The notes: generated by a model from the sequence alone, not told the origin. 32,614 bases of DNA from Nakamurella sp. (GCA_017848755.1 JAFIHI010000084.1:1-32614); one strand, 5' to 3'; counted from the stretch's first letter, positions 7,267 through 32,614 are shown. Made by a program: numbers and translations.

Positions 7267-9288
7267 GTGATGAGATTCGCCGACCCCGCCGACCCTGCCG
7301 ACGGTGCCCACAGTGCCAACTGCGCCGATCTGGTGCGTGCCGCGGCGCAGCGCACCCCGGCCGGCCCCGCGCTCATCGGCGCCTGGGGCACGCGCAGCTG
7401 GGCACAACTGGACGCGGCTATCGACGCTGGCGTCCCCGTGTTCCGTGCTGGCGTCCCGGCGCCCGGTGCCGACAGTCCGGACGCGCGCCCGGCGGATCGG
7501 GTGGTCCTCGCCCTGCCGACCGGCCCCGAGCTCGCGGCGGCGCTGTTCGCCGTGTTCCGCGCGGGCCTGGTGGCCGTCCCCGTCGACCCGAGGCGGACGG
7601 ATATCGCATGGGTCGTGCGTCGGGTGGGCGCCACCCATGTCGTCACCGACGCGGTCCCGGATGCATCGGCCCAGATCACGGCCCAGATCACCACGGGCGC
7701 GCAGGTCGCCGCGTGGTGGGGAAGCGACACGCCGGCTCGGGCGCGCACACGGGCTGCCTATGACGATGTTCGCGGCGGCGCACAGTCCGGCGGGGAGGAT
7801 CTGGCCCTGCTCGCGCGCGCTGCCCGGCAGGGTCCGCCCGTCATGCTCCCGCACCGTGCGCTGATCGCTGCGGCGCGGGCGATCTCCGGTGCCGAGCCGG
7901 TCGCCATGGGGCCTGCCGATCGGGTGCTGCAGGTGCTTCCGCTGTTCCACGTGGTCGGACTCGTCACCGCTTTCCTGCCGGCGGCGCTCGCCGGCGCGGC
8001 GGTGGTGGTACCGGACCCGAACGGCTCCACGACTCCGGCCGAGGCGGCGCTCGCCGCCGTGCGCACGCACCGCGTCTCGGTGTTACCGGCCGAGCCGACG
8101 CTCTACCGGCAACTGGACCGCATCGACGGCTTCGAGCGGGCGCTGGCGACCGTGCGGCTGATGACCTCGGGATCGTCGCCGCTCGACCCGGTGGACTTCG
8201 CGACCATCAGGACGGCCACCGGACAGGCGGTCCGCGAGGGCTACGGAATCTCTGAGGCCGCGTCCGCAGTGACTTCGACGCTGATGTCGCCGTCCGCGAA
8301 GGCGGGCTCCGTCGGCCGGGCCTATCCGGGCGTCGAGGTGCGCATCCTCGGCGACAGTCCTTCGGTAGCAACGGATTCCGCGCCGAGTGCCAGTGCGGCC
8401 GCCGCCACGATCGCCGAGACGAGCACCGAAGCCGGTACCGAGTCCGGTGACGATGCCGGTGCCGGAACGGCTGCCGCCGCGCCCACGGGCGGGGATGAGA
8501 CTGGGCTGGGCGCCGTCATACCCGCCGTCGAATCTGCAGTCCCGGCCACCGGCGAGACGCGAGAGGGACGCAGCGGCGCGGTCTTCGACGAGCTCACCGA
8601 CCTTGCCGAACTGTCCGCGCCCGGCGGGGATGTCGGGCCGATCGCGATCCGCGGCGACACCCTGTTCACCGGGTACTGGCCCGACGGCCGGTCCGGTCCC
8701 GATGCGGACGGCTGGTTCGTGACCGGCGACATCGGCTACTTCGACGACGCGGGCGAACTGCATCTGGTCGACCGCGCGGAGGAGGCCGTCACCGTCGCCG
8801 GATTCACCGTCTACCCGCGTGAGGTGGAAGACGCCTTGGTCCGGCATCCGCTGGTGGCCGACGCGGCCGTGGTCGGCATGCCCGGTCGTGGGGGCGAGAC
8901 TGTGGTGGCGGCGCTCGTCGCCAAGGCCGGAACGCGGCCGACCTCGAGCGACGTCGGCGAGTTCGTGGCCTCCTTGTTGCCGCCGTTCAAGAGGCCGACC
9001 GACTACCGGCTGGTCGACGTGCTCCCGCGGACCGAGGTCGGCCGGCTCGACCGCGCCACGGTGCGCCGGGACTTCGCGGCGAGCCGCGGCATCGACCTGC
9101 TGCCCCCGGTGCGGTTGCGTCCGGCCGACGACCCGGATCGTGCGGTGGGGCCAGGCGTCGGGCCGGTGGCCGACCGTGACCAGGGGCCGGAGCGTGCGGC
9201 GGGGCTGAATCGCTTGGGGCGGCGGCTCCCCGCTGCGGACAGCGGCCGAGGGCGCAGCGCCCGCGACACCGACGAGGACCTGTTCTAG
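7267..9288 (+). CDS. Degenerate acyl-CoA synthetase-like (ANL superfamily) protein
   Basis: 673-aa member of the adenylate-forming ANL superfamily. Recognisable blocks are LPLFHVVGLVTAF, YGISEA (A5), GWFVTGDIGYFDDAGELHLVDR-type A7, and VTVAGFTVYPREVEDAL (A8). Two catalytic elements are missing. The ATP phosphate loop (normally TSGTTGxPKG) is replaced by ARAARQGPP between LALL and VMLPHRAL. The A10 lysine (PRTxxGKxxR) is Arg in PRTEVGRLDR. A roughly 90-residue Ala/Thr/Ser-rich insert (about 366-455) splits the C-terminal half of the large domain, and a low-complexity tail of about 45 residues follows A10. It may be a non-catalytic scaffold or a decaying ligase. GTG at 7267 or ATG at 7270 could start it. 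It stands alone, upstream of a repeat tract and a DUF488 gene. Confidence 0.8.
   Translation: MMRFADPADPADGAHSANCADLVRAAAQRTPAGPALIGAWGTRSWAQLDAAIDAGVPVFRAGVPAPGADSPDARPADRVVLALPTGPELAAALFAVFRAGLVAVPVDPRRTDIAWVVRRVGATHVVTDAVPDASAQITAQITTGAQVAAWWGSDTPARARTRAAYDDVRGGAQSGGEDLALLARAARQGPPVMLPHRALIAAARAISGAEPVAMGPADRVLQVLPLFHVVGLVTAFLPAALAGAAVVVPDPNGSTTPAEAALAAVRTHRVSVLPAEPTLYRQLDRIDGFERALATVRLMTSGSSPLDPVDFATIRTATGQAVREGYGISEAASAVTSTLMSPSAKAGSVGRAYPGVEVRILGDSPSVATDSAPSASAAAATIAETSTEAGTESGDDAGAGTAAAAPTGGDETGLGAVIPAVESAVPATGETREGRSGAVFDELTDLAELSAPGGDVGPIAIRGDTLFTGYWPDGRSGPDADGWFVTGDIGYFDDAGELHLVDRAEEAVTVAGFTVYPREVEDALVRHPLVADAAVVGMPGRGGETVVAALVAKAGTRPTSSDVGEFVASLLPPFKRPTDYRLVDVLPRTEVGRLDRATVRRDFAASRGIDLLPPVRLRPADDPDRAVGPGVGPVADRDQGPERAAGLNRLGRRLPAADSGRGRSARDTDEDLF
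7759..7777 (+). repeat. Dispersed short repeat, partial copy
   Basis: TATGACGATGTTCGCGGCG inside the AMP-ligase-like gene. The last 17 bases are identical to 22452-22468. It sits just before the place where the P-loop is lost. Confidence 0.6.
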
Positions 9289-21819: not shown

Positions 21820-21860
21820 CGGCGGTGCCGTATCGTCCAAGGAGATCGGCGCGGCGGCGG

Positions 21861-21951
21861 GGTCGGTCGGGCCGGTTGGTCGGGCAGGTTGGTCGGTCGG
21901 GCCGGTTGGTCGGTCGGGCCGGTCGGGCGGGTCGGTCGGGCGGGCAGCGAG
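21861..21951 (+). repeat. G/T-rich low-complexity tract upstream of lrp-type gene
   Basis: About 90 bp built of GGTCGG, GGGCCGG and TTGGTCGG in irregular tandem array, for example GGTCGGTCGGGCCGGTTGGT repeated. It ends just before the ribosome binding site GAGGAG of the Lrp-type gene. Confidence 0.8.
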
Positions 21952-21959
21952 GAGTCGGG

Positions 21960-22454
21960 ATGGATGCGGTCGATCGCGGTGTGGTCGATGCCCTGCGGGT
22001 CGAGGGGCGGTTGAGCTACGCCGAGCTGGCACGGAAGGTGAACCTGTCGTCCTCCACGGTCCACGAGCGGGTGGCGAAGCTCGAATCCTCCGGCGTGATC
22101 AGCGGGTACCGGGCCGTCGTCGACCCGCGCCAGATCGGCCTGGGCGTCACGGCGCTGATCGGGGTGCAGCCGGGCGAGTACGGCCGTGACGACGACATCG
22201 CTCTCGCGCTCGAGGCCATGCCCGAGGTCGAGAGTTGTTACAGCGTCGCCGGTGAGGAGGCGTTCATCGTGCTGGTGCGGGTGGCGAGCGTGGACGATCT
22301 GCACCGGTACCTGGGGCGATTGCGCGCCATCGACGGGGTGTCCCGGACGCGCACCGCGGTGGTGCTGGCCACTCGGTTCGAGGGGCGGCCCGTGGCGGCC
22401 GGCGACGGGGCGGGGAGAGGTGCGGGCGCGGCTACCCTTGGGTCTCGTGGGTGA
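21960..22454 (+). CDS. Lrp/AsnC-family transcriptional regulator
   Basis: 164-aa regulator. The N-terminal helix-turn-helix is DRGVVDALRVEGRLSYAELA followed by NLSSSTVHERVAKLESSGVI; the C-terminal RAM/AsnC effector domain follows (VTALIGVQPGE, VESCYSVAGEEAFIVLVRV, LRAIDGVSRTRTAVVLAT). The ATG at 21960 has GAGGAG 5 nt upstream. The last 25 residues are low-complexity Gly/Ala. It is divergent from bldC and its stop overlaps the GTG of the DUF4229 gene. The effector is probably an amino acid; targets cannot be read from the sequence. Confidence 0.9.
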   Translation: MDAVDRGVVDALRVEGRLSYAELARKVNLSSSTVHERVAKLESSGVISGYRAVVDPRQIGLGVTALIGVQPGEYGRDDDIALALEAMPEVESCYSVAGEEAFIVLVRVASVDDLHRYLGRLRAIDGVSRTRTAVVLATRFEGRPVAAGDGAGRGAGAATLGSRG

Positions 22455-23831: not shown

Positions 23832-25169
23832 CTATCGGGGAACGAGGGCGCGCACCGCGGCCCGGTCGGGTTTGCCGGACGGCAGGTGGGGGATGGCGTC
23901 GACCGTCACGAGCCGCCGTGGGCGATGGTGCGCGGGCAGATCGGTGAGCGCGGCGCGCAATGACGCGACATCCCAGGTATGCCAGTCGGTCTCGTGTGTG
24001 CGGCCGGCCGCGACAGTCGCGTCGACTGCACCCGGTGCGCCCAACGCTGCGCGCCTATCCGGGACGATGACGGCGGTCACCACCTGGCCCCAAGTCTTGT
24101 CCGGCACACCCACGACGACCGCATCCTCGATACCGGTCAACCGCTTGATCGCCGCCTCGACGGGCCCCGGCGCGACGTTGATCCCCCCGGTGACGATGAC
24201 GTCGTCGATCCGCCCGAGGACGGCGAGCGTTCCGTCGGCGGAGATCTCGCCCATGTCGGCGGTGACGTAGCTCCCGGGCCGGGCGAATGCCGGATCCCCG
24301 GGCCGGTTGCGGTAACCGCGGGCGACCATCGGGCCGGTCAGCACGATCGCCCCGGTGCCGTCGACCGCCGTCGGGCTGTTGAGCGTCTTGTCGTTGAGTG
24401 TCTTGTCGTTGAATGTCGTGCGGTTGAATGTCGTGCGGTTGAATGTCACCGTGACGCCATCCAGCGGAACGCCGTCATAGACGCAGCCGCCGCAGGTCTC
24501 CGTCATGCCGTAGGTGGTGACGACGGGAATCCCTGCGGCCCTGGCGGTTTCGAGCAGTGCGGGCGGCGTTGCGGCCCCGCCGACCAGCACGGCGTCGAAG
24601 ATCTCGGCGGTGGCCACGGCCGCCTCGGCGTCCGCGAGGATCCGCCGTAGTTGCGTCGGCACCAGCGAAACGTACCGTCGCGGACCGGGCAGCCGTTGCG
24701 CGTGCGCGACGAAATCCATTGCCGTGAAGGGCTTCCCGCGGTCCATCACCGTCGGTTCGGTGCCGGCCCGCGCCGCGCGCAGCAGCACCTGTAGGCCGGC
24801 GATGTGCTCGGCGGGCAGGGCGAGCAGCCACGTGCCGGGCCCGCCCATCCTCGCCTCCGTGGCGGCGGCCGATGCCGCGAGTTGACCGGCCGATAACAGC
24901 ACCCCCTTCGGGGTTCCCGTGGAGCCGGAGGTCGGCATGACGAGTGCGGTCGGGTCGGCGGGGTCGTCCTCACCGGGGTGGAGGGCGGCGTTTTGTGCCG
25001 GGCCCGCGCCGAGCGCAGCGATGATGTCGCCCGCACGCGGATCGCGCTGACCGATCGGCAACAGCGCGGGTCCTTCGCCGGTCAGAGCGCGCCGCAGGTC
25101 CGAGAGCAACCCGAGGACGTCCGCACCGGCGGGAACCATGATCGGCTCTACGCGGCGCATATGCATCAT
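23832..25169 (-). CDS. menE: o-Succinylbenzoate-CoA ligase MenE with inserted pentapeptide repeat
   Basis: 445-aa ANL-superfamily enzyme that activates o-succinylbenzoate with CoA. The P-loop PTSGSTGTPKG is at 79-89, A5 YGMTETCGGCVYDG at 220-233, then GRIDDVIVTGGINVAP (A8) and LPSGKPDRAAV with the A10 lysine, so it looks catalytically intact. Residues 242-266 are a 5-residue repeat (TFNRT/TFNDK/TLNDK), encoded by a 15-bp tandem repeat, between two beta strands after A5. The first ATG is 25169; the ATG one codon later has better spacing from GGAG. It lies 75 nt downstream of menB and 11 nt upstream of menA. Confidence 0.93.
   Translation of the reverse strand: MMHMRRVEPIMVPAGADVLGLLSDLRRALTGEGPALLPIGQRDPRAGDIIAALGAGPAQNAALHPGEDDPADPTALVMPTSGSTGTPKGVLLSAGQLAASAAATEARMGGPGTWLLALPAEHIAGLQVLLRAARAGTEPTVMDRGKPFTAMDFVAHAQRLPGPRRYVSLVPTQLRRILADAEAAVATAEIFDAVLVGGAATPPALLETARAAGIPVVTTYGMTETCGGCVYDGVPLDGVTVTFNRTTFNRTTFNDKTLNDKTLNSPTAVDGTGAIVLTGPMVARGYRNRPGDPAFARPGSYVTADMGEISADGTLAVLGRIDDVIVTGGINVAPGPVEAAIKRLTGIEDAVVVGVPDKTWGQVVTAVIVPDRRAALGAPGAVDATVAAGRTHETDWHTWDVASLRAALTDLPAHHRPRRLVTVDAIPHLPSGKPDRAAVRALVPR
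24379..24453 (-). repeat. 15-bp in-frame tandem repeat inside menE
   Basis: Five 15-bp units starting at 24379, 24394, 24409, 24424 and 24439, of the type TTGAATGTCGTGCGG on the plus strand; the third and fourth are identical. They encode the TFNRT-type pentapeptides of MenE. Confidence 0.92.
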
Positions 25170-26203: not shown

Positions 26204-26448
26204 TCAGCCTATATTTCGCGACCTGGCATGCGACCCCTGCAGTCGGCAGCTGCGGCGGCGACCTGCGGGGTGGCGCCGCAGCCGATCCCACGTGGCGCCC
26301 GGGGGAGCTGACACCACGGTGACGAGTGGGGTACTGTACTCATATCACGTAAGACGTCCTACCGACCATGTCCGCTGTTGTGGCCGGCGTGGTCCGGGTG
26401 GTCGCGCAGGCGCCGCTGCCGGCCAGCAGCAGACAGGGGAGTGCAGTC
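26199..26448. promoter_or_regulatory. Divergent region between menB and the catabolic gene cluster
   Basis: 250 bp holding the start signals for menB (minus) and the plus-strand cluster. GTACTGTAC (26331-26339) is a short palindrome beside CATATCAC, a possible regulator site. AGGGGAG (26435-26441) is the ribosome binding site of the following gene. Confidence 0.4.
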
Positions 26449-27237
26449 GTGCTCAAGTCCGTTTCCATTCAGCTCATGTGGGCCGACCTGCCGTTTCCGG
26501 AACGGGTCGCCAAGGCCGCGGCGGCGGGCTTCGATCTGGTCGATCTGTGGGATCAACGCAACAGCGACATCCACGCGGTCCACGATGCGTGCCGGGCGCA
26601 CGGCATCGGTATCAACGGCTTCTTCGCCACTCGCGATACGTCGCTGTGCGATCCGGGGAGCCGGACCGCGGTGCTGGACGAGATCAAGGCGAATCTGGAA
26701 GTGGCCGTCGCCGTCGGGGCCAGACAGATGCACTGCTTCTCGAACGCGATCCGGCCCGGTGGAATCGTGGCCGTCGCGCCGCCGCTGGCCCCGGAGGCGC
26801 TGATGGAATCGTGTGCCGAGGCGCTCAGTGCCGCAGCGGATCTCGTGGCCGGCACCGGGGTGCAACTGGTTCTCGAACATCTCAACACCGTGTTCCTGCC
26901 CGGGTACCTGTGGGATGACGTGAATGTGACGGCCGGCCTGGCTCGGCTGATCAACCGTCCGGAGATCGGCGTTGTGTTCGACACCTACCATCAGCAGCTC
27001 ACCTACGGTCGGCTCACCGACAGCCTGGTCGCCTGCCTGCCGCAGCTCGCCCGCGTCGATCTTGCGGAGGTGCCGGGCCGATTCGAACCGGGGCAGGGTG
27101 AGATCGATATGGCCTACCTGCTCCGGATTCTCGCCGAGCATGGCTGGGACAAGACCGTCACATTCGAAACCACCCCGTCCGACGGCAACCCGGAAACCGC
27201 ACTGGCCGCGATCAACAAGTTGATGCCGCTGCGGTGA
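26449..27237 (+). CDS. Hydroxypyruvate isomerase-like TIM-barrel protein
   Basis: 262-aa member of the xylose isomerase-like TIM barrel/AP endonuclease 2 family, closest in length and pattern to hydroxypyruvate isomerase (Hyi) and related sugar isomerases. Visible metal-site segments: VQLVLEHLNT (Glu), GVVFDTYHQQLTYG (Asp/His), LARVDLAEVPGRFEPGQGEIDM and a last glutamate in TVTFETTPSDG. The start is GTG 26449, 7 nt after AGGGGAG; an earlier ATG at 26368 lacks such a signal and would add non-conserved residues. It heads a plus-strand run with two SDR genes. The reaction is probably aldose-ketose isomerisation or epimerisation of a small carbonyl compound; the substrate is unknown. Confidence 0.8.
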   Translation: MLKSVSIQLMWADLPFPERVAKAAAAGFDLVDLWDQRNSDIHAVHDACRAHGIGINGFFATRDTSLCDPGSRTAVLDEIKANLEVAVAVGARQMHCFSNAIRPGGIVAVAPPLAPEALMESCAEALSAAADLVAGTGVQLVLEHLNTVFLPGYLWDDVNVTAGLARLINRPEIGVVFDTYHQQLTYGRLTDSLVACLPQLARVDLAEVPGRFEPGQGEIDMAYLLRILAEHGWDKTVTFETTPSDGNPETALAAINKLMPLR

Positions 27238-27296
27238 TGCCGCAGCACCGGACACTCGCCCGTCATCCATGCGCACCCATCAAGGAGTTCCTGCTG

Positions 27297-28046
27297 ATGA
27301 GCACAGACCTTTTCGACCTGTCCGGGAAAATCGCCCTCATCAGCGGGGCCGGATCACGGGGTGGCCAAGGCGCTGCTCAGGCGCGGCTGTTCGCCGAGCA
27401 CGGTGCACGGGTCGTGATCGGCGACCTGCCGTCCTCACAGGGGCGTGAGGTGGCCGCCGAGATCGGCGATGCGGCGATGTTCGTGGAGCTGGACGTCACT
27501 GACGAGGCGTCCTGGGCCGCCGCCGTGGCGGCGACGAAGGCCCGCTGGGGGGCGCCGAGCATCCTGTCCAACACGGCGGGCGTGTGGCTGATGAAGGGCA
27601 TCCTGGAGACCAGTGCCGCCGAGTACCAAAAGGTGATCGCGGTGAACCAGATCGGCGTCTACCTGGGCATGGCCGCCGTACTGCCGGACATGAAGGCTGC
27701 GGGATCGGGTGCGATCGTCAATATTTCATCGGTGTCCGGGATCAAGGGCGGCGGGCAGCCGTTCGCGTATGCCGCGAGCAAGTGGGCTGTTCTGGGTATG
27801 ACGCATCAGGCGGCACACGACCTGGCGAAATTCGGGATCCGGATCAACGCCATCTGCCCCGGCGTGGTGGACACCCCGATGATCGAGGGCGGCAAACCCG
27901 TGCTCGAACACCTCGAATCGATGATCCCGACCGGGCGAGCCGGACAGCCATCGGAGATCGCGTCGATCGCCCTGTTCCTGGTGAGCGAGGCGAGCAGCTA
28001 CGTCTCGGGCACCCAGATCGTCGCGGACGCGTCGTTGACCGCATAG
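27297..28046 (+). CDS. Short-chain dehydrogenase/reductase (SDR) 1
   Basis: 249-aa classical SDR. The cofactor motif is SGAGSRGGQG (16-25), with Asp in VIGDLP suggesting NAD(H). LSNTAG replaces the common NNAG. The catalytic Ser is in NISSVSG (144-145), with Tyr158 and Lys162 in YAASK, and PGVVDTPM follows. The C-terminal LFLVSEASSYVSGTQIVADAS is typical. ATG 27297 has AAGGAG 9 nt upstream. It lies 59 nt after the Hyi-like gene and 79 nt before a second SDR, so the three are probably co-transcribed. It likely oxidises a hydroxyl of the cluster's substrate. Confidence 0.88.
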   Translation: MSTDLFDLSGKIALISGAGSRGGQGAAQARLFAEHGARVVIGDLPSSQGREVAAEIGDAAMFVELDVTDEASWAAAVAATKARWGAPSILSNTAGVWLMKGILETSAAEYQKVIAVNQIGVYLGMAAVLPDMKAAGSGAIVNISSVSGIKGGGQPFAYAASKWAVLGMTHQAAHDLAKFGIRINAICPGVVDTPMIEGGKPVLEHLESMIPTGRAGQPSEIASIALFLVSEASSYVSGTQIVADASLTA

Positions 28047-28125
28047 ACCCAAGAAGTGGCGAGGCCGACGCAGTAGCCGGCCGCGCCCACCATCCATCCG
28101 CACCGACCGAGGGGAGCACGCGGAC

Positions 28126-28890
28126 ATGTGGGCAGAACTTCAGGGCGCAGTGGGCATCATCACCGGCGGCGCCGGCGCTATCGGGTCCGAGACCGCCGCT
28201 GTCTTCGCCGAGCATGGCGTCACCGTTGCGATCGCCGACATCGTCGATCCGTCACCTGTGGTGGCACGGATCAACGCGGCAGACGGCCGGGCGCTGGGCG
28301 TGCAGGCGGACATGAACGATCCGGATGCGGTCGATCGGATGGTGGCCGACGTGCTGGAGTTCTCCGGTGGGCGGATCGATTTCCTGATCAACTTCGCCGG
28401 GCTGTTCAACGATGTGCCCCGGGTTCCGTTCTGGGAGATCGACCTGGCGATGTGGGATTCGGTCGTCGAGTCCAATGTGCGCACCGCGTTCCTCGCGACC
28501 CGCGCGGTCAGCGCGCCGATGCGTGCGGCCGGCCACGGCCGGATCGTGCACGTCAGCTCGAATACCGCCGCGTTCGGTATGGGCAACTTCCTGCACTACA
28601 CCTCCGCCAAGGCTGCCCTGGTCGGTATGGCTCGTTCGATGGCCCGGGAGCTCGGCCCGTTCGGCATCGCGGTGAACGCGGTAGGGCCCGGCCTGGTGCA
28701 CACCCCCGCGGTCGTCGCAGCGCAGGAGCAGAAGTACCTCGACCAGGTCGTGAACGGCCAGTGCCTGCACCAGCCGATCGTGCAGCGCGACATTGTCGAC
28801 GCCGTCGCGTTTCTCGTCTCCCCGGCCGCGCGAATGGTGACCGGACAGACGCTGCTCGTCAACGGCGGCGCCACGATGGGTTCCTTCTGA
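28126..28890 (+). CDS. Short-chain dehydrogenase/reductase (SDR) 2
   Basis: 254-aa classical SDR with an intact cofactor motif TGGAGAIG (13-20), Asp38 in AIADIVD favouring NAD(H), INFAGLF in place of NNAG, Ser144-145 in HVSSNTA, Tyr158/Lys162 in YTSAK, and PGLVHTPAVV. The C-terminus VTGQTLLVNGGATMGSF is the standard SDR ending. ATG 28126 is preceded by GAGGGGAG about 10 nt upstream. Only about a third identical by eye to SDR 1, so they probably act on different steps. It converges on the hydrolase gene with 21 nt between stops and no strong hairpin there. Confidence 0.88.
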   Translation: MWAELQGAVGIITGGAGAIGSETAAVFAEHGVTVAIADIVDPSPVVARINAADGRALGVQADMNDPDAVDRMVADVLEFSGGRIDFLINFAGLFNDVPRVPFWEIDLAMWDSVVESNVRTAFLATRAVSAPMRAAGHGRIVHVSSNTAAFGMGNFLHYTSAKAALVGMARSMARELGPFGIAVNAVGPGLVHTPAVVAAQEQKYLDQVVNGQCLHQPIVQRDIVDAVAFLVSPAARMVTGQTLLVNGGATMGSF

Positions 28891-28911
28891 GTACACCCGA
28901 TTCGCGCAGGC

Positions 28912-30279
28912 TCAGTCCCAATAGCGCTCCGCGTCAGGAACGGTGACGCAACGTCCGCGGCCGTAGACGACCTCGGCGTCAGGCTGTGCGGCGTCATACA
29001 CCACATCACCACGCGACAAGGTGAGCACCGGCCAGCCCTTGAGCTTCCAACCCTCGTACAAGCAAGTGCCCTTGCCGGACGGGTGCTCGACCACCCGCTC
29101 CTCGTCCAGGTCGATCATGACCAGGTCCGCGTCGCCGCCCACGGACAGCGAGCCCTTCTTGGGGTGCAGGCCGAAACGCTTGGCCGGGTTGTAGGAGTTG
29201 AGTTCCGACAGCCGTTGCAGGGACATGCCGCGCTCGTGCACGCCGAAGTGCAGCATCAGCGGCAGCTCCCACGGAAAGCTCACGACTCCCGGCTTCTCGG
29301 ACCAGATGTCCCCGCCGTTCTTCTTGAACGGCACGTGATCCGTGCCCAGCGTGGAGATCTGGCCGTTGAGCATGCCCTTCCACAGGCCGTCAAGCTGGGT
29401 GCGGTCGCGGAGCGGCGGCGAGATCTTCGCCGTGGTGCCGAGATCCGCGTCGTACGCGGTGCGGGTGAGGTAGTGCGGGCACGTCTCGATCCATACGTCG
29501 ATGCCGCGCACCCGGGCCGCCGCGGCCATCGTCGGCCCCGCCGCCACCGTCGTGTGCACCACGTAGAGCGGGCAGCCGGTGATCTCGGCGAGATGGATCA
29601 TCCGCTCGATTGCCTCCTCCTCGACGAACGGCGGGCGCGATTCGCTGTACGCGGCCAGATCGCAGCGGCCGGTCGCCTTCATCTCCGGCTTGAGAAGTTC
29701 GACCAGCTCCGTGTTCTCACAGTGAACCGCGACGACACCGCGCGGCAGCTTCGCTGCTTCGCGCATCGCGGCGAACACCCACGAGTCGGGGGAGGAGTGG
29801 ATGCCGATGGAGTTTCCGACCTCGTAGCCCATGTGGCACTTGAACGTCTGCACGCCGGTCTGCTCGGCGATCTCGGCGATCTCGGAGACGTGTTCGGCCT
29901 TCTGGATTCCGAAGTGGAAGCCGAAGTCGACGACGGCGCCCTGCTCGCCGCGTTCGCGCCGATCCCAGTAGTACGGCACGTACTTCTGCTCCATGCTGCG
30001 GGCGAACAACAGGATCGTGGTGACCCCGCCGCGCGCCGCCCCGGCCGTCTCGGTACGTATGTCCTCGTCGAAGTCGTAGTTGACGCCTAGGTGGCAGTGC
30101 GGGTCGATGACGCCGGGCATGACGACCCGTCCGCCCGCGTCGATGGTGCGCTCTGCGGGGGGCATGGCGTCGTTCCCGCCGATGGCCGCGATGCGTCCGC
30201 CGCTCACGGCGATCGCGCCGCGCTGCTCGCCGCTGTGATCCACCAACCGCGCGTTCGTGATGACCAGGTCAGCCTTCAT
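28912..30279 (-). CDS. Dihydropyrimidinase/allantoinase-like cyclic amidohydrolase
   Basis: 455-aa amidohydrolase of the dihydropyrimidinase-hydantoinase-allantoinase group, which opens cyclic amide or imide rings. The binuclear metal site is complete: His61 and His63 (DPHCHLG), the carboxylated lysine Lys147 (FKCHMGYE), His186 (VHCEN), His242 (VVHTT) and Asp314 (TLGTDHVPF). ETCPHYL and SYNPAKRFGLHPKKGSL are further family blocks. The ATG at 30279 lies inside the end of the DpaA-like gene with GGAGAAGGA just upstream, so the two are translationally coupled. Ring size and substrate cannot be decided; the partners (opine-type dehydrogenase, DpaA-like protein) argue against ordinary pyrimidine breakdown. 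Confidence 0.88.
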   Translation of the reverse strand: MKADLVITNARLVDHSGEQRGAIAVSGGRIAAIGGNDAMPPAERTIDAGGRVVMPGVIDPHCHLGVNYDFDEDIRTETAGAARGGVTTILLFARSMEQKYVPYYWDRRERGEQGAVVDFGFHFGIQKAEHVSEIAEIAEQTGVQTFKCHMGYEVGNSIGIHSSPDSWVFAAMREAAKLPRGVVAVHCENTELVELLKPEMKATGRCDLAAYSESRPPFVEEEAIERMIHLAEITGCPLYVVHTTVAAGPTMAAAARVRGIDVWIETCPHYLTRTAYDADLGTTAKISPPLRDRTQLDGLWKGMLNGQISTLGTDHVPFKKNGGDIWSEKPGVVSFPWELPLMLHFGVHERGMSLQRLSELNSYNPAKRFGLHPKKGSLSVGGDADLVMIDLDEERVVEHPSGKGTCLYEGWKLKGWPVLTLSRGDVVYDAAQPDAEVVYGRGRCVTVPDAERYWD

Positions 30280-31168
30280 TCCTTCTCCTCGATTCGATCT
30301 CGGCGATGCGTCGTGCGATGCCCTGCCACTGACTAGCGCCCACCGTGATCGGCGCCCGGCGACCCAGCCCGCGCGCCCACAGGGCTCGGTGGCCGAGACG
30401 CTCGGCGGCGGCCAGGTCGATGCCGCCCGGTGGCGCGGCCAGGTCCATCACCAGCGATTTCGGTGGCAGCAACGCCAGGATCGATTCGTCGACGATCCGG
30501 TGCGGCACTGTGGACAGCACCATACAAGTGGTAGGGGCAACCTGCGCCAGATCCTCCAGCGGGTGCGGTATGCAGCCTGCGCACAGCGCATCGGCGCGCT
30601 GCACCGGGTTGCGGGCGGCGACATGCACCCGGGCGCCGAGCAATACCAGGGTGCGGGCGAGCAGCCGACCGATGGATCCGTGCCCGACGACCACCACCTC
30701 CGAGTTGTGGATCGTCACGCGGGTGTTCGCGATGATCGCGCCGATCGCGCCCTCGACGATGGCCGGGCCGCGCAGCAGCATTAGCTCGACGTCGTGCTCG
30801 TATTCGCTGATCTCGATGCCGAGCTGCATGGCAGCGGTGGACAGCGCCTCGTTGGGCCAGCCGAGAATCACCGTGGCCGGCTTGTTCATGGCGCGGAGCA
30901 GCTCCGCGTCGGGATAGATGGGCACGGGTGACTCGGGCGCGAAGAGTGCGCCATCAGCGGCCTGCCCCGGGATGGGGAACAGCGCGTAGTCGGCGCCGGA
31001 GATCGCCTCGAGGGCACTTCCGGCGTGCGTCACGCCGTCGATGCCGTCGGCAGGCCACGGGAAGCCGAAGCCACGCACGGCGGCGCCCGTCCCCGCCGCG
31101 AGGCGGGCGATCTCCTGCTCGCGCTCGTCCCCGCCGACCACGGCGATGGTGCGTCCGGCCAGGTCCAT
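30269..31168 (-). CDS. Dipicolinate synthase subunit A-like dehydrogenase (DpaA/SpoVFA-like)
   Basis: 299-aa NAD(P)-binding protein that matches the layout of Bacillus DpaA (SpoVFA). It has an N-terminal domain starting LAGRTIAVVGGDEREQEIARL and ending LFPIPGQAADG, a middle segment with PAIVEGAIGAIIANT and TIHNSEV, then a Rossmann core VVVVGHGSIGRLLARTLVLL (GHGSIG 162-167), MVLSTVPHRIVDE, VMDLAAPPGGIDL and a C-terminal ARGLGRRAPITVGASQ. In endospore formers DpaA works with flavoprotein DpaB; no DpaB is present here. ATG 31168 has AAGGAGG 4 nt upstream. It sits between an opine dehydrogenase-like gene and a cyclic amidohydrolase, so its substrate is probably an imino or cyclic amino acid. The family call is fairly firm; the reaction is unknown. 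Confidence 0.82.
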   Translation of the reverse strand: MDLAGRTIAVVGGDEREQEIARLAAGTGAAVRGFGFPWPADGIDGVTHAGSALEAISGADYALFPIPGQAADGALFAPESPVPIYPDAELLRAMNKPATVILGWPNEALSTAAMQLGIEISEYEHDVELMLLRGPAIVEGAIGAIIANTRVTIHNSEVVVVGHGSIGRLLARTLVLLGARVHVAARNPVQRADALCAGCIPHPLEDLAQVAPTTCMVLSTVPHRIVDESILALLPPKSLVMDLAAPPGGIDLAAAERLGHRALWARGLGRRAPITVGASQWQGIARRIAEIESRRRNEG

Positions 31169-31178
31169 GAACCCTCCT

Positions 31179-31217
31179 TGCTCGCGCGGCGTGCTCGCGC
31201 AGTGTGCTCGCGCAGTG
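31179..31217 (-). repeat. 13-bp tandem repeat upstream of the DpaA-like gene
   Basis: Three units (31179-31191, 31192-31204, 31205-31217) of TGCTCGCGCAGTG; the last two are identical. They occupy the gap between the opine dehydrogenase-like stop and the DpaA-like ribosome binding site. Confidence 0.9.
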
Positions 31218-31243
31218 TGGTGCGGTCGGTGCCACTGCCCCGG

Positions 31244-32317
31244 TCAATCGCGGACCATGCTGATCAGCTCGTCACGGGTCAGCCCGCTAATGCCGAGCCG
31301 CTCGGCCGTCAGACCCCGTGTCAGCAGCCCGGTGTCGGTCAGCGTGGCACCGATCTGCAACAGCGCGTCGGCGGTGGGCACCGGGACGCCCGCGATTCCG
31401 GCCAGCTCCACGAACGGCAGCACGCCGAAGCCGAAATCCTCCTGGTAGTAGCGATGCTGCAACGAGTCCGGCGCCTTGATCGTCGAGTTGGCCACGCCGC
31501 CGCGAATCGCCGCGCCCGTGTCGCCCCTCTTCGCGGCATCGATATCGACGCTTCCGAGCGCCGCCATCTCCTCCATCAGCGTGGGCAGCTGATGGCCGAA
31601 CGCGGCCGCCACGGCCAGTCTCTCGGCGTCATAGGCGTCGATGACGCGCACCACGGACGGCGTCATAGCGTCGACGTAGAACCTGAAGTCGCCGCCTGTC
31701 GCCTCCATCCAGGCCACGGACAGCACCGCGCCCGGCGGGTGGAGCACCAGGTTCACATTCGCCAGGCTTGAGGCGAGCACGTCGGGCGCCGCGACGACCC
31801 CGGGGAACAGCTCGGCCGCCCGGCGCAGCGCCGGTTGCCCGCCGGGCAGGGCGCCCGCCGTTACCCGCGCGGCCCGCCCCCCGATCGAGACGACACCGCC
31901 TTGCACCCGGCCGATGTAGGTGAGCGTGGAGAATTCCACCACGGGCGGCAGCGGCACGCCGGCCGCGGTGAATACGTGCCGCAGATGCAGGGCGCCGCCG
32001 GTGTGACCAGGATTGAGGATGATCGGGACCGTCGGTGCCAGTGCCGCCAGGTCGGCGAAGAGCTGAGGATGCACCACCGAGGGCAGGCACACGACGATCG
32101 CGTCGACGCCGGAGATCGCCTCGGCGAGGTCCGACGTCATCCCCGCGGGGCGGACCGATCCCTCACCGAACACGCCGGTGTAGTGGATGCCCGATTCGCG
32201 ATGCGCGTCCAGCCGCGCCGGGTTGCGGTTCCATAGGCGGACGTCCACTCCCGCCCGCGTCAGCTCGACCGCTGCCGCGAGCCCGCCGGCGCCGGCGCCG
32301 AGCACAGCGGTCGTCAT
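31244..32317 (-). CDS. Octopine/nopaline dehydrogenase-family NAD(P) enzyme
   Basis: 357-aa two-domain dehydrogenase. The N-terminal Rossmann domain starts TTAVLGAGAGGLAAAVELTR (GAGAGG 7-12) and continues with VDAIVVCLPSVVHP and ILNPGHTGGAL. The C-terminal Octopine_DH domain carries the catalytic histidine His193 in NVNLVLHPPGAVLS. Family members join or split an amino acid and an alpha-keto acid through a secondary amine. The ATG at 32317 overlaps the stop of the upstream enolase-superfamily gene (ATGA), so the frame's longer upstream reading is a shadow of that gene. It lies 75 nt before the DpaA-like gene. Direction (opine breakdown or formation) and substrate are unknown. Confidence 0.86.
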   Translation of the reverse strand: MTTAVLGAGAGGLAAAVELTRAGVDVRLWNRNPARLDAHRESGIHYTGVFGEGSVRPAGMTSDLAEAISGVDAIVVCLPSVVHPQLFADLAALAPTVPIILNPGHTGGALHLRHVFTAAGVPLPPVVEFSTLTYIGRVQGGVVSIGGRAARVTAGALPGGQPALRRAAELFPGVVAAPDVLASSLANVNLVLHPPGAVLSVAWMEATGGDFRFYVDAMTPSVVRVIDAYDAERLAVAAAFGHQLPTLMEEMAALGSVDIDAAKRGDTGAAIRGGVANSTIKAPDSLQHRYYQEDFGFGVLPFVELAGIAGVPVPTADALLQIGATLTDTGLLTRGLTAERLGISGLTRDELISMVRD

Positions 32318-32614
32318 GCGCGGTAGCGCTCCAATTTGGCGCGGTCGACCTCGATGCCCAGGCCCGGGCCCTCCGGGACGAAGACGCGGCCGCCCTCGAA
32401 CCTGAACGGCTCGGTGATGAGGTCGTCGAGGTAATAGACGCCGGCGATCTTGGGCCCGTCCGAGCCCTCCGGCTGCGAGACCGGGCACACGCTCGGCAGC
32501 GATGTGCTGGCCACCGCGGCCCCCAACTGCAGGTTCGCCGCGTTGCCGATGCCGGTCTCGATCGAGCCGCCGATGTCGTTGTACATGCCGAGGGCGCCGA
32601 CCAGATCACCGACC
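32314..32614 (-). CDS. Enolase-superfamily enzyme (mandelate racemase/muconate lactonizing type), C-terminal part
   Basis: Only the last 99 codons are in the window; the 5' end lies beyond 32614. The visible part has the C-terminal pattern of the muconate cycloisomerase-like branch: GGSIETGIGNAANLQLGAAV (ending the barrel, with the conserved Glu-Thr-Gly-Ile), then YYLDDLITEPFRFEGGRVFV and PEGPGLGIEVDRAKLERYR. Enzymes of this branch do racemisation, epimerisation, dehydration or cycloisomerisation of carboxylates. The stop overlaps the opine dehydrogenase-like start by ATGA, making it the upstream gene of that operon. MenC is also an enolase-superfamily enzyme and often lies near menB, but this ending fits the MR/MLE branch better. 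Confidence 0.8.
   Translation of the reverse strand, partial: VGDLVGALGMYNDIGGSIETGIGNAANLQLGAAVASTSLPSVCPVSQPEGSDGPKIAGVYYLDDLITEPFRFEGGRVFVPEGPGLGIEVDRAKLERYRA

Follow-up and report, generated by a model that had tools for sequence, protein, structure and literature searches.

What compound is handled by an operon that combines an octopine/nopaline-dehydrogenase-family protein (ODH), a DpaA-like dehydrogenase, a hydantoinase-like amidohydrolase and an enolase-superfamily enzyme of the MLE subgroup? These genes lie on the minus strand at the end of the stretch of Nakamurella sp. DNA analyzed here (GCA_017848755.1, JAFIHI010000084.1:1-32614; 32,614 nucleotides, hereafter the window), which is the entire contig C232 in the draft genome of an actinobacterium; position 32614 is the contig end and not a biological border. 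The analysis described below shows that they are part of a horizontally spread cluster with a gene set about three times larger than that visible within the window, and suggests that this cluster probably catabolizes an imported nitrogen-containing ring compound.

From the contig end inwards, the operon consists of the C-terminal 99 amino acids of the MLE protein (32314-32614; PF13378 MR_MLE_C, 9.5e-11), the gene being truncated by the contig end, followed by ODH (NAD(P)-type, 31244-32317, 357 amino acids; PF02317, 5.7e-36), the DpaA-like dehydrogenase (30269-31168, 299 amino acids; PF16924, 6.3e-20) and the hydantoinase/dihydropyrimidinase-like amidohydrolase (28912-30279, 455 amino acids; Amidohydro_1). 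An earlier reading of the same DNA, made without database searches (the sequence-only reading), had named these families along with a facing set comprising a Hyi-like isomerase and two SDRs, and all of them (MR_MLE_C, Octopine_DH, DpaA_N, Amidohydro_1, adh_short_C2 for both SDRs, and AP_endonuc_2) pass their Pfam cut-offs. The layout it described was recovered as well: the stop of the MLE gene and the start of ODH overlap as ATGA at 32314-32317, the DpaA-like gene (stop at 30269) and the hydantoinase-like gene (ATG at 30279) share 11 nt, and the facing set ends 21 nt from the operon (SDR2 stop at 28890, hydantoinase stop at 28912).

Linkage and mobility of the cluster

Whether these genes form a functional unit was addressed by comparison of 12 cluster loci (the window and contig C183 of the same genome counted as one). 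The MLE, ODH, DpaA-like and hydantoinase-like proteins, together with a protein in which an isochorismatase domain is fused to a VOC domain and a 4-OT tautomerase, are encoded in all 12 loci, and the ODH, DpaA-like and hydantoinase-like genes are contiguous and identically ordered in each of them. A CodA-like amidohydrolase gene is also present in 12 of the 12 loci, and an AtzA-like one in all except L011, where the available stretch may end short of the gene. Apart from Actinomycetota, the cluster was identified on plasmids of the Alphaproteobacteria Aminobacter, Shinella and Phyllobacterium; on the Aminobacter plasmid pAA01, the ODH and DpaA-like genes overlap by 4 nt. The set is thus present in almost full form on plasmids and in soil bacteria that are not related to one another. 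Thus, the notion that the genes travel as one unit, which would have fallen had they never been found together, is supported by a gene order kept across phyla, and a chance neighborhood is ruled out by this conservation in 12 loci. The facing set belongs to the unit, too: in Arthrobacter sp. 35W (L011), it is encoded on the strand of the hydantoinase-like gene and follows the latter, and in L012 it is convergent, as in the window. All alphaproteobacterial copies that were read encode a 227-amino-acid protein annotated as ‘resolvase’ or hypothetical between the hydantoinase-like and 4-OT genes (L022, 20231-20914), without a Pfam match.

The rest of the cluster in the genome of the window resides on two other contigs, C183 and C226. 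C183 terminates within the same MLE gene, with the N-terminal 276 amino acids at its end (the L010 orthologue is 384 amino acids long), and has the gene order of Actinobacteria bacterium 69-20; its end aligns to L010 through base 8529 and the alignment of C232 starts at base 8554, so that about 25 bases are missing between the two contigs. C226 extends the far side with an M24 hydrolase and additional ABC transporter genes. Joined by synteny with 69-20, with no read spanning the joints, the contigs would make up a cluster of about 27 kb. The additional genes encode the 4-OT tautomerase, the isochorismatase-VOC fusion, the AtzA-like and CodA-like amidohydrolases, the M24 hydrolase, an aldehyde dehydrogenase, the E1-alpha, E1-beta and E2 components of a 2-oxoacid dehydrogenase, a third SDR, NMT1-type ABC transporters and a GntR regulator. 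The assembly of 69-20 has the M24 gene in two pieces separated by undetermined codons (L075, 13032-13163 and 13180-13959); the copy on C226 is an unbroken one of 380 amino acids.

In the genomes sampled, ODH of this type is confined to the cluster. When genome contigs were scanned with the DpaA-like protein, four loci were recovered, in 69-20 (95% identity), Arthrobacter sp. 35W, a Microbacteriaceae metagenome-assembled genome (MAG) and a Gaiella MAG. Close ODH homologues (at least 55% identity) were found in 4 of 396 genomes of the phylum, exactly the four with a DpaA of the cluster type, an overlap with a probability of about 1e-9 under random placement (two of the four genomes are from the same genus). 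The 36 further ODH matches among the 396 genomes show at most 36% identity, and none of the 26 that were checked adjoins a cluster gene; the view of ODH as a generic actinobacterial enzyme was therefore rejected, as it is just the close homologues that are located in the cluster. In the same search, many small genomes of family f13 were seen to encode a distantly related ODH, of about 28-33% identity, that is not part of the cluster. One more candidate (genome G177, locus L027) was put aside, with a distant DpaA (34%) and no core enzyme nearby. Among 72,556 plasmids, the DpaA-like protein, ODH and the fusion protein were detected in the same 14 records, distant outliers aside.

The cluster is rare, has a patchy distribution and has spread horizontally. 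Of the 17 genomes from the genus of the window, 2 have it, as do 2 of 299 genomes from the order, 1 of 245 from the Arthrobacter family and 2 of 24 from the class to which genome G017 belongs. Aminobacter aminovorans KCTC 2477 carries two copies, and the copy on the conjugative plasmid pAA03 (L077, 8137-29799) is flanked by two identical transposase/TniB/TniQ modules, with a shortened AtzA-like gene at its left border. The parts of the cluster appear to have mixed histories, because the identities of two adjacent genes rank the groups differently: the hydantoinase-like protein of the Gaiella copy is 72-73% identical to those of Alphaproteobacteria and 62% to that of the window, and its DpaA-like protein 54-56% and 65%, respectively. 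The alphaproteobacterial version includes RidA and a CobW-type GTPase, and in Aminobacter, genes for malate synthase G and a D-amino acid dehydrogenase are inserted next to ODH. On plasmid pAM01 of Aminobacter sp. MSH1, the cluster is preceded at a distance of a few genes by folE (GTP cyclohydrolase I; L079, 5698-6360), which is probably unrelated.

Enzyme families encoded by the cluster

Catalytic motifs are by and large retained in the individual proteins. ODH is a member of the Octopine_DH family (PF02317, 124.2 bits against a cut-off of 30), with N-(1-D-carboxylethyl)-L-norvaline dehydrogenase as the nearest solved structure (1bg6, 2e-47). His193, Arg289 and Asp294 are invariant in the alignment (A2) and correspond to the catalytic residues of the latter enzyme. 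The DpaA-like protein matches PF16924 (DpaA_N) with 71.9 bits (cut-off 29.2) and misses both DpaA equivalog cut-offs (TIGR02853, 168.1 vs 319.65 bits; NF006162, 189.7 vs 261). Its AlphaFold2 model (pLDDT 84, pTM 0.63) matches DpaA best (3d4o, Z 27.8, rmsd 4.3 over 289 aligned residues; 2rir, Z 26.2; 29% identity), followed by adenosylhomocysteinase and transhydrogenase/alanine dehydrogenase folds with Z of 19-20; the fold that the model shares with DpaA is uninformative with regard to function. In eight cluster genomes, no match to DpaB (TIGR02852) scored above the cut-off, and a single partial one, of 20.9 bits, came from G399. Dipicolinate synthesis was accordingly rejected, given the missed DpaA equivalogs and the absence of DpaB. 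The MLE protein retains the K-x-K motif, the metal-binding acids and the second lysine; the full-length L010 orthologue scores 223.5 bits against muconate cycloisomerase TIGR02534, below the cut-off of 334.95.

For the hydantoinase-like protein, the nearest solved structure is L-hydantoinase 1gkr (1.1e-68), and the metal-site motifs HxH, FK, VHCE, VHT and GTDH are kept in the 12 loci. It misses the NCBIfam equivalogs for dihydropyrimidinase (278.7 vs 393.25), allantoinase (275.3 vs 357.85) and ErtD (217.8 vs 600). The isochorismatase domain of the fusion protein is closest to RutB and falls short of the cut-offs for RutB (96.2 vs 377.95) and the biuret hydrolase BiuH (77.6 vs 370), and the VOC domain retains a His/His/Glu set in 12 of 12 sequences. 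The CodA-like protein of L010 preserves the metal and glutamate motif and misses the NCBIfam cytosine deaminase cut-off (243.4 vs 403 bits). The M24 protein comes in two forms, one with the metal-ligand motifs (L013, L028-L030) and one that lacks several of them, like creatinase-like proteins (L012 and the plasmid copies). The NMT1-type binding proteins are encoded in the cluster as well. The plain pyrimidine, allantoin, ergothioneine and cytosine routes were rejected, the curated cut-offs being unmet; with DpaB absent and the functional cut-offs missed, no known pathway that was tested fits.

The facing set starts with the Hyi-like, xylose-isomerase-like TIM barrel protein (26449-27237, plus strand; PF01261 AP_endonuc_2, 9.3e-29), with orthologues in L010-L013 and L028-L030; the mechanical open reading frame (ORF) begins at 26368, and a GTG at 26449 agrees better with the homologues. 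It scores below the equivalogs for hydroxypyruvate isomerase (TIGR03234, 111.6 vs 353.45) and 2-oxo-tetronate isomerase (108.8 vs 325). SDR1 (27297-28046, plus strand; adh_short_C2), with orthologues in L010-L012, has a mechanical ORF from 27234 and probably starts at 27297 because the L012 homologue begins with MSTDL. SDR2 (28126-28890, plus strand; adh_short_C2) resembles pyridoxal 4-dehydrogenase, below the cut-off, and has orthologues in L010, L013 and L028-L030. The 75-nt spacer between the ODH and DpaA-like genes contains about three copies of a 13-bp tandem repeat (31179-31219; TRF), a possible regulatory element. Beyond the Hyi/SDR set, the window encodes the menaquinone genes menB, menE and menA. 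Within the menE frame, a 15-bp tandem repeat of about five copies (24370-24447) encodes FNRTTFNRTTFNDKTLNDKTLN, where the sequence of the 69-20 orthologue differs; G-rich tandem repeats with periods of 13, 17 and 30 bp (21860-21947) are located at the start of the frame of an AsnC/Lrp-type regulator (21825-22454).

A candidate pathway and its competitors

Given the N-ring hydrolases, the decarbamoylase-like domain, the importers and the regulator, we infer that the mobile cluster serves N-heterocycle catabolism, and consider it probable that the route runs as follows. Under GntR control, the NMT1-type ABC transporters would import the substrate, from which the CodA-like and perhaps the AtzA-like amidohydrolase would remove a nitrogen, either exocyclic or in the ring; a cyclic amide or ureide would then be opened by the hydantoinase-like enzyme, and the isochorismatase domain would take off a carbamoyl group. 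The product could be isomerized by the MLE-type enzyme and the 4-OT tautomerase, and in a late step, ODH and the DpaA-like enzyme would oxidize carboxylate-flanked C-N bonds to yield a 2-oxo acid and an amine. Central metabolism would receive the carbon through Hyi, the SDRs, the aldehyde dehydrogenase and the E1/E2 complex; a glyoxylate-type product would fit the malate synthase G and D-amino acid dehydrogenase that adjoin ODH in Aminobacter. More tentatively, the cluster might be an undescribed, ancient mobile pathway for a common natural N heterocycle, with the ODH- and DpaA-family enzymes acting as sequential catabolic dehydrogenases on an iminodicarboxylate intermediate, a possibility to which we give slightly less than even odds; if true, this would extend both families to a new role. 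Pterin or biopterin breakdown, considered in view of the deaminase-like enzymes and the carbon module, is a guess. Several observations weigh against the proposed catabolism: no core enzyme scores high enough against a curated model for its reaction to be fixed; divergence is greatest among the CodA-like proteins, with 31-39% identity between groups; in the sequences compared, the AtzA-like proteins have Ser/Thr in place of the HxxE glutamate of related deaminases and so may not be deaminases; and Actinomycetota and Alphaproteobacteria have different peripheral carbon modules.

The sequence-only reading, in which an opine-like or cyclic amino-acid derivative would be degraded and ODH would oxidize an opine, was right about the unit and appears unlikely with respect to the substrate. 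ODH is indeed nearest to N-(1-D-carboxylethyl)-L-norvaline dehydrogenase, with the His and Arg/Asp retained, and the substrate class of DpaA is likewise a dicarboxylate with a nitrogen between carboxylate-bearing carbons; however, three further N-ring hydrolases and a decarbamoylase-like domain would be superfluous for an opine, and Octopine_DH is a broad family, with distant members in 36 other genomes of the phylum and the 26 checked loci outside any such cluster. The two additional amidohydrolases, the RutB/biuret-hydrolase-like domain, the M24 protein and the transporters shift the likeliest substrate to a nitrogen ring with amino or oxo substituents, which would be deaminated, opened and decarbamoylated ahead of the ODH and DpaA steps. 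Another candidate is a cyclic-ureide pathway of an ordinary kind, for a compound already known (hydantoin, a creatinine-type ring, or a pyrimidine or purine breakdown product), that simply escaped annotation, ODH and DpaA then being late amino-acid dehydrogenases. Hydantoinase-like, RutB/BiuH-like and CodA-like enzymes are typical of such routes, and RidA is found alongside in the alphaproteobacterial version. We regard this as fairly unlikely: the dihydropyrimidinase, allantoinase, ErtD, RutB, BiuH and cytosine deaminase cut-offs are all missed widely, and we know of no ureide route that includes ODH, DpaA and MLE.

The AtzA-like, AtzC/CodA-like and biuret-hydrolase-like proteins, the plasmid carriage, the bracketing transposases and one host from a pesticide-residue site would all be compatible with recent plasmid assembly of a pathway for a synthetic s-triazine or similar xenobiotic. 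The identity of only 50-58% between the phyla, for ODH and for DpaA, indicates an old cluster instead, and a cyanuric acid hydrolase was not identified in the gene annotations or matches, a negative that does not include a dedicated family search; we consider this origin improbable. As for production of a metabolite of the opine type or akin to dipicolinate, the settings in which ODH and DpaA are best known are biosynthetic and a CobW-type GTPase occurs in Alphaproteobacteria; nevertheless, with hydrolases and importers abundant, no exporter or ligase conserved in the cluster, and DpaB below the cut-off in the eight genomes, it seems very improbable. At least eight enzymes are strictly linked in the cluster, which is common to two phyla and plasmid-borne. 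Elucidation of its chemistry would assign functions to the ODH, DpaA, MLE and isochorismatase-VOC clades and three amidohydrolase families together and would probably name a nitrogen compound contested by soil bacteria; culturable, sequenced hosts (Shinella sp. HZN7, A. aminovorans KCTC 2477, Aminobacter sp. MSH1 and Arthrobacter sp. 35W) make the cluster directly testable.

Comparison with known systems

No description of this gene combination was found in the open-access literature, a coverage that leaves out most subscription papers, and as far as these tools can tell, the cluster is an undescribed variant of ureide-type catabolic clusters. With the hydantoin, N-carbamoyl-amino-acid and creatinine-type pathways, it shares a putative hydantoinase-like ring opening, a putative decarbamoylation by the isochorismatase family and deaminase-type amidohydrolases, as well as an MLE-subgroup enzyme, racemases of this subgroup acting on N-acyl amino acids; it differs in the addition of ODH, the DpaA-like protein, 4-OT, the VOC fusion and the E1/E2 module, and in missing the relevant cut-offs. 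The resemblance to the Rut pyrimidine degradation and biuret hydrolysis systems lies in the isochorismatase domain, nearest to RutB/BiuH, and in the RidA of the alphaproteobacterial version, but in the cluster this domain is fused to VOC and neither RutA nor cyanuric acid hydrolase was identified in the loci. The DpaA-like protein has the DpaA_N domain and the whole fold in common with dipicolinate synthase (DpaAB) of Bacillus, from which the cluster is set apart by the lack of DpaB, a score far under the DpaA equivalog and a catabolic-looking gene context. Finally, ODH belongs to the same family as the opine dehydrogenases, such as the N-(1-D-carboxylethyl)-L-norvaline dehydrogenase of Arthrobacter (CENDH, 1bg6), with catalytic-type residues conserved, whereas its close homologues, in the genomes sampled, occur only alongside the cluster.

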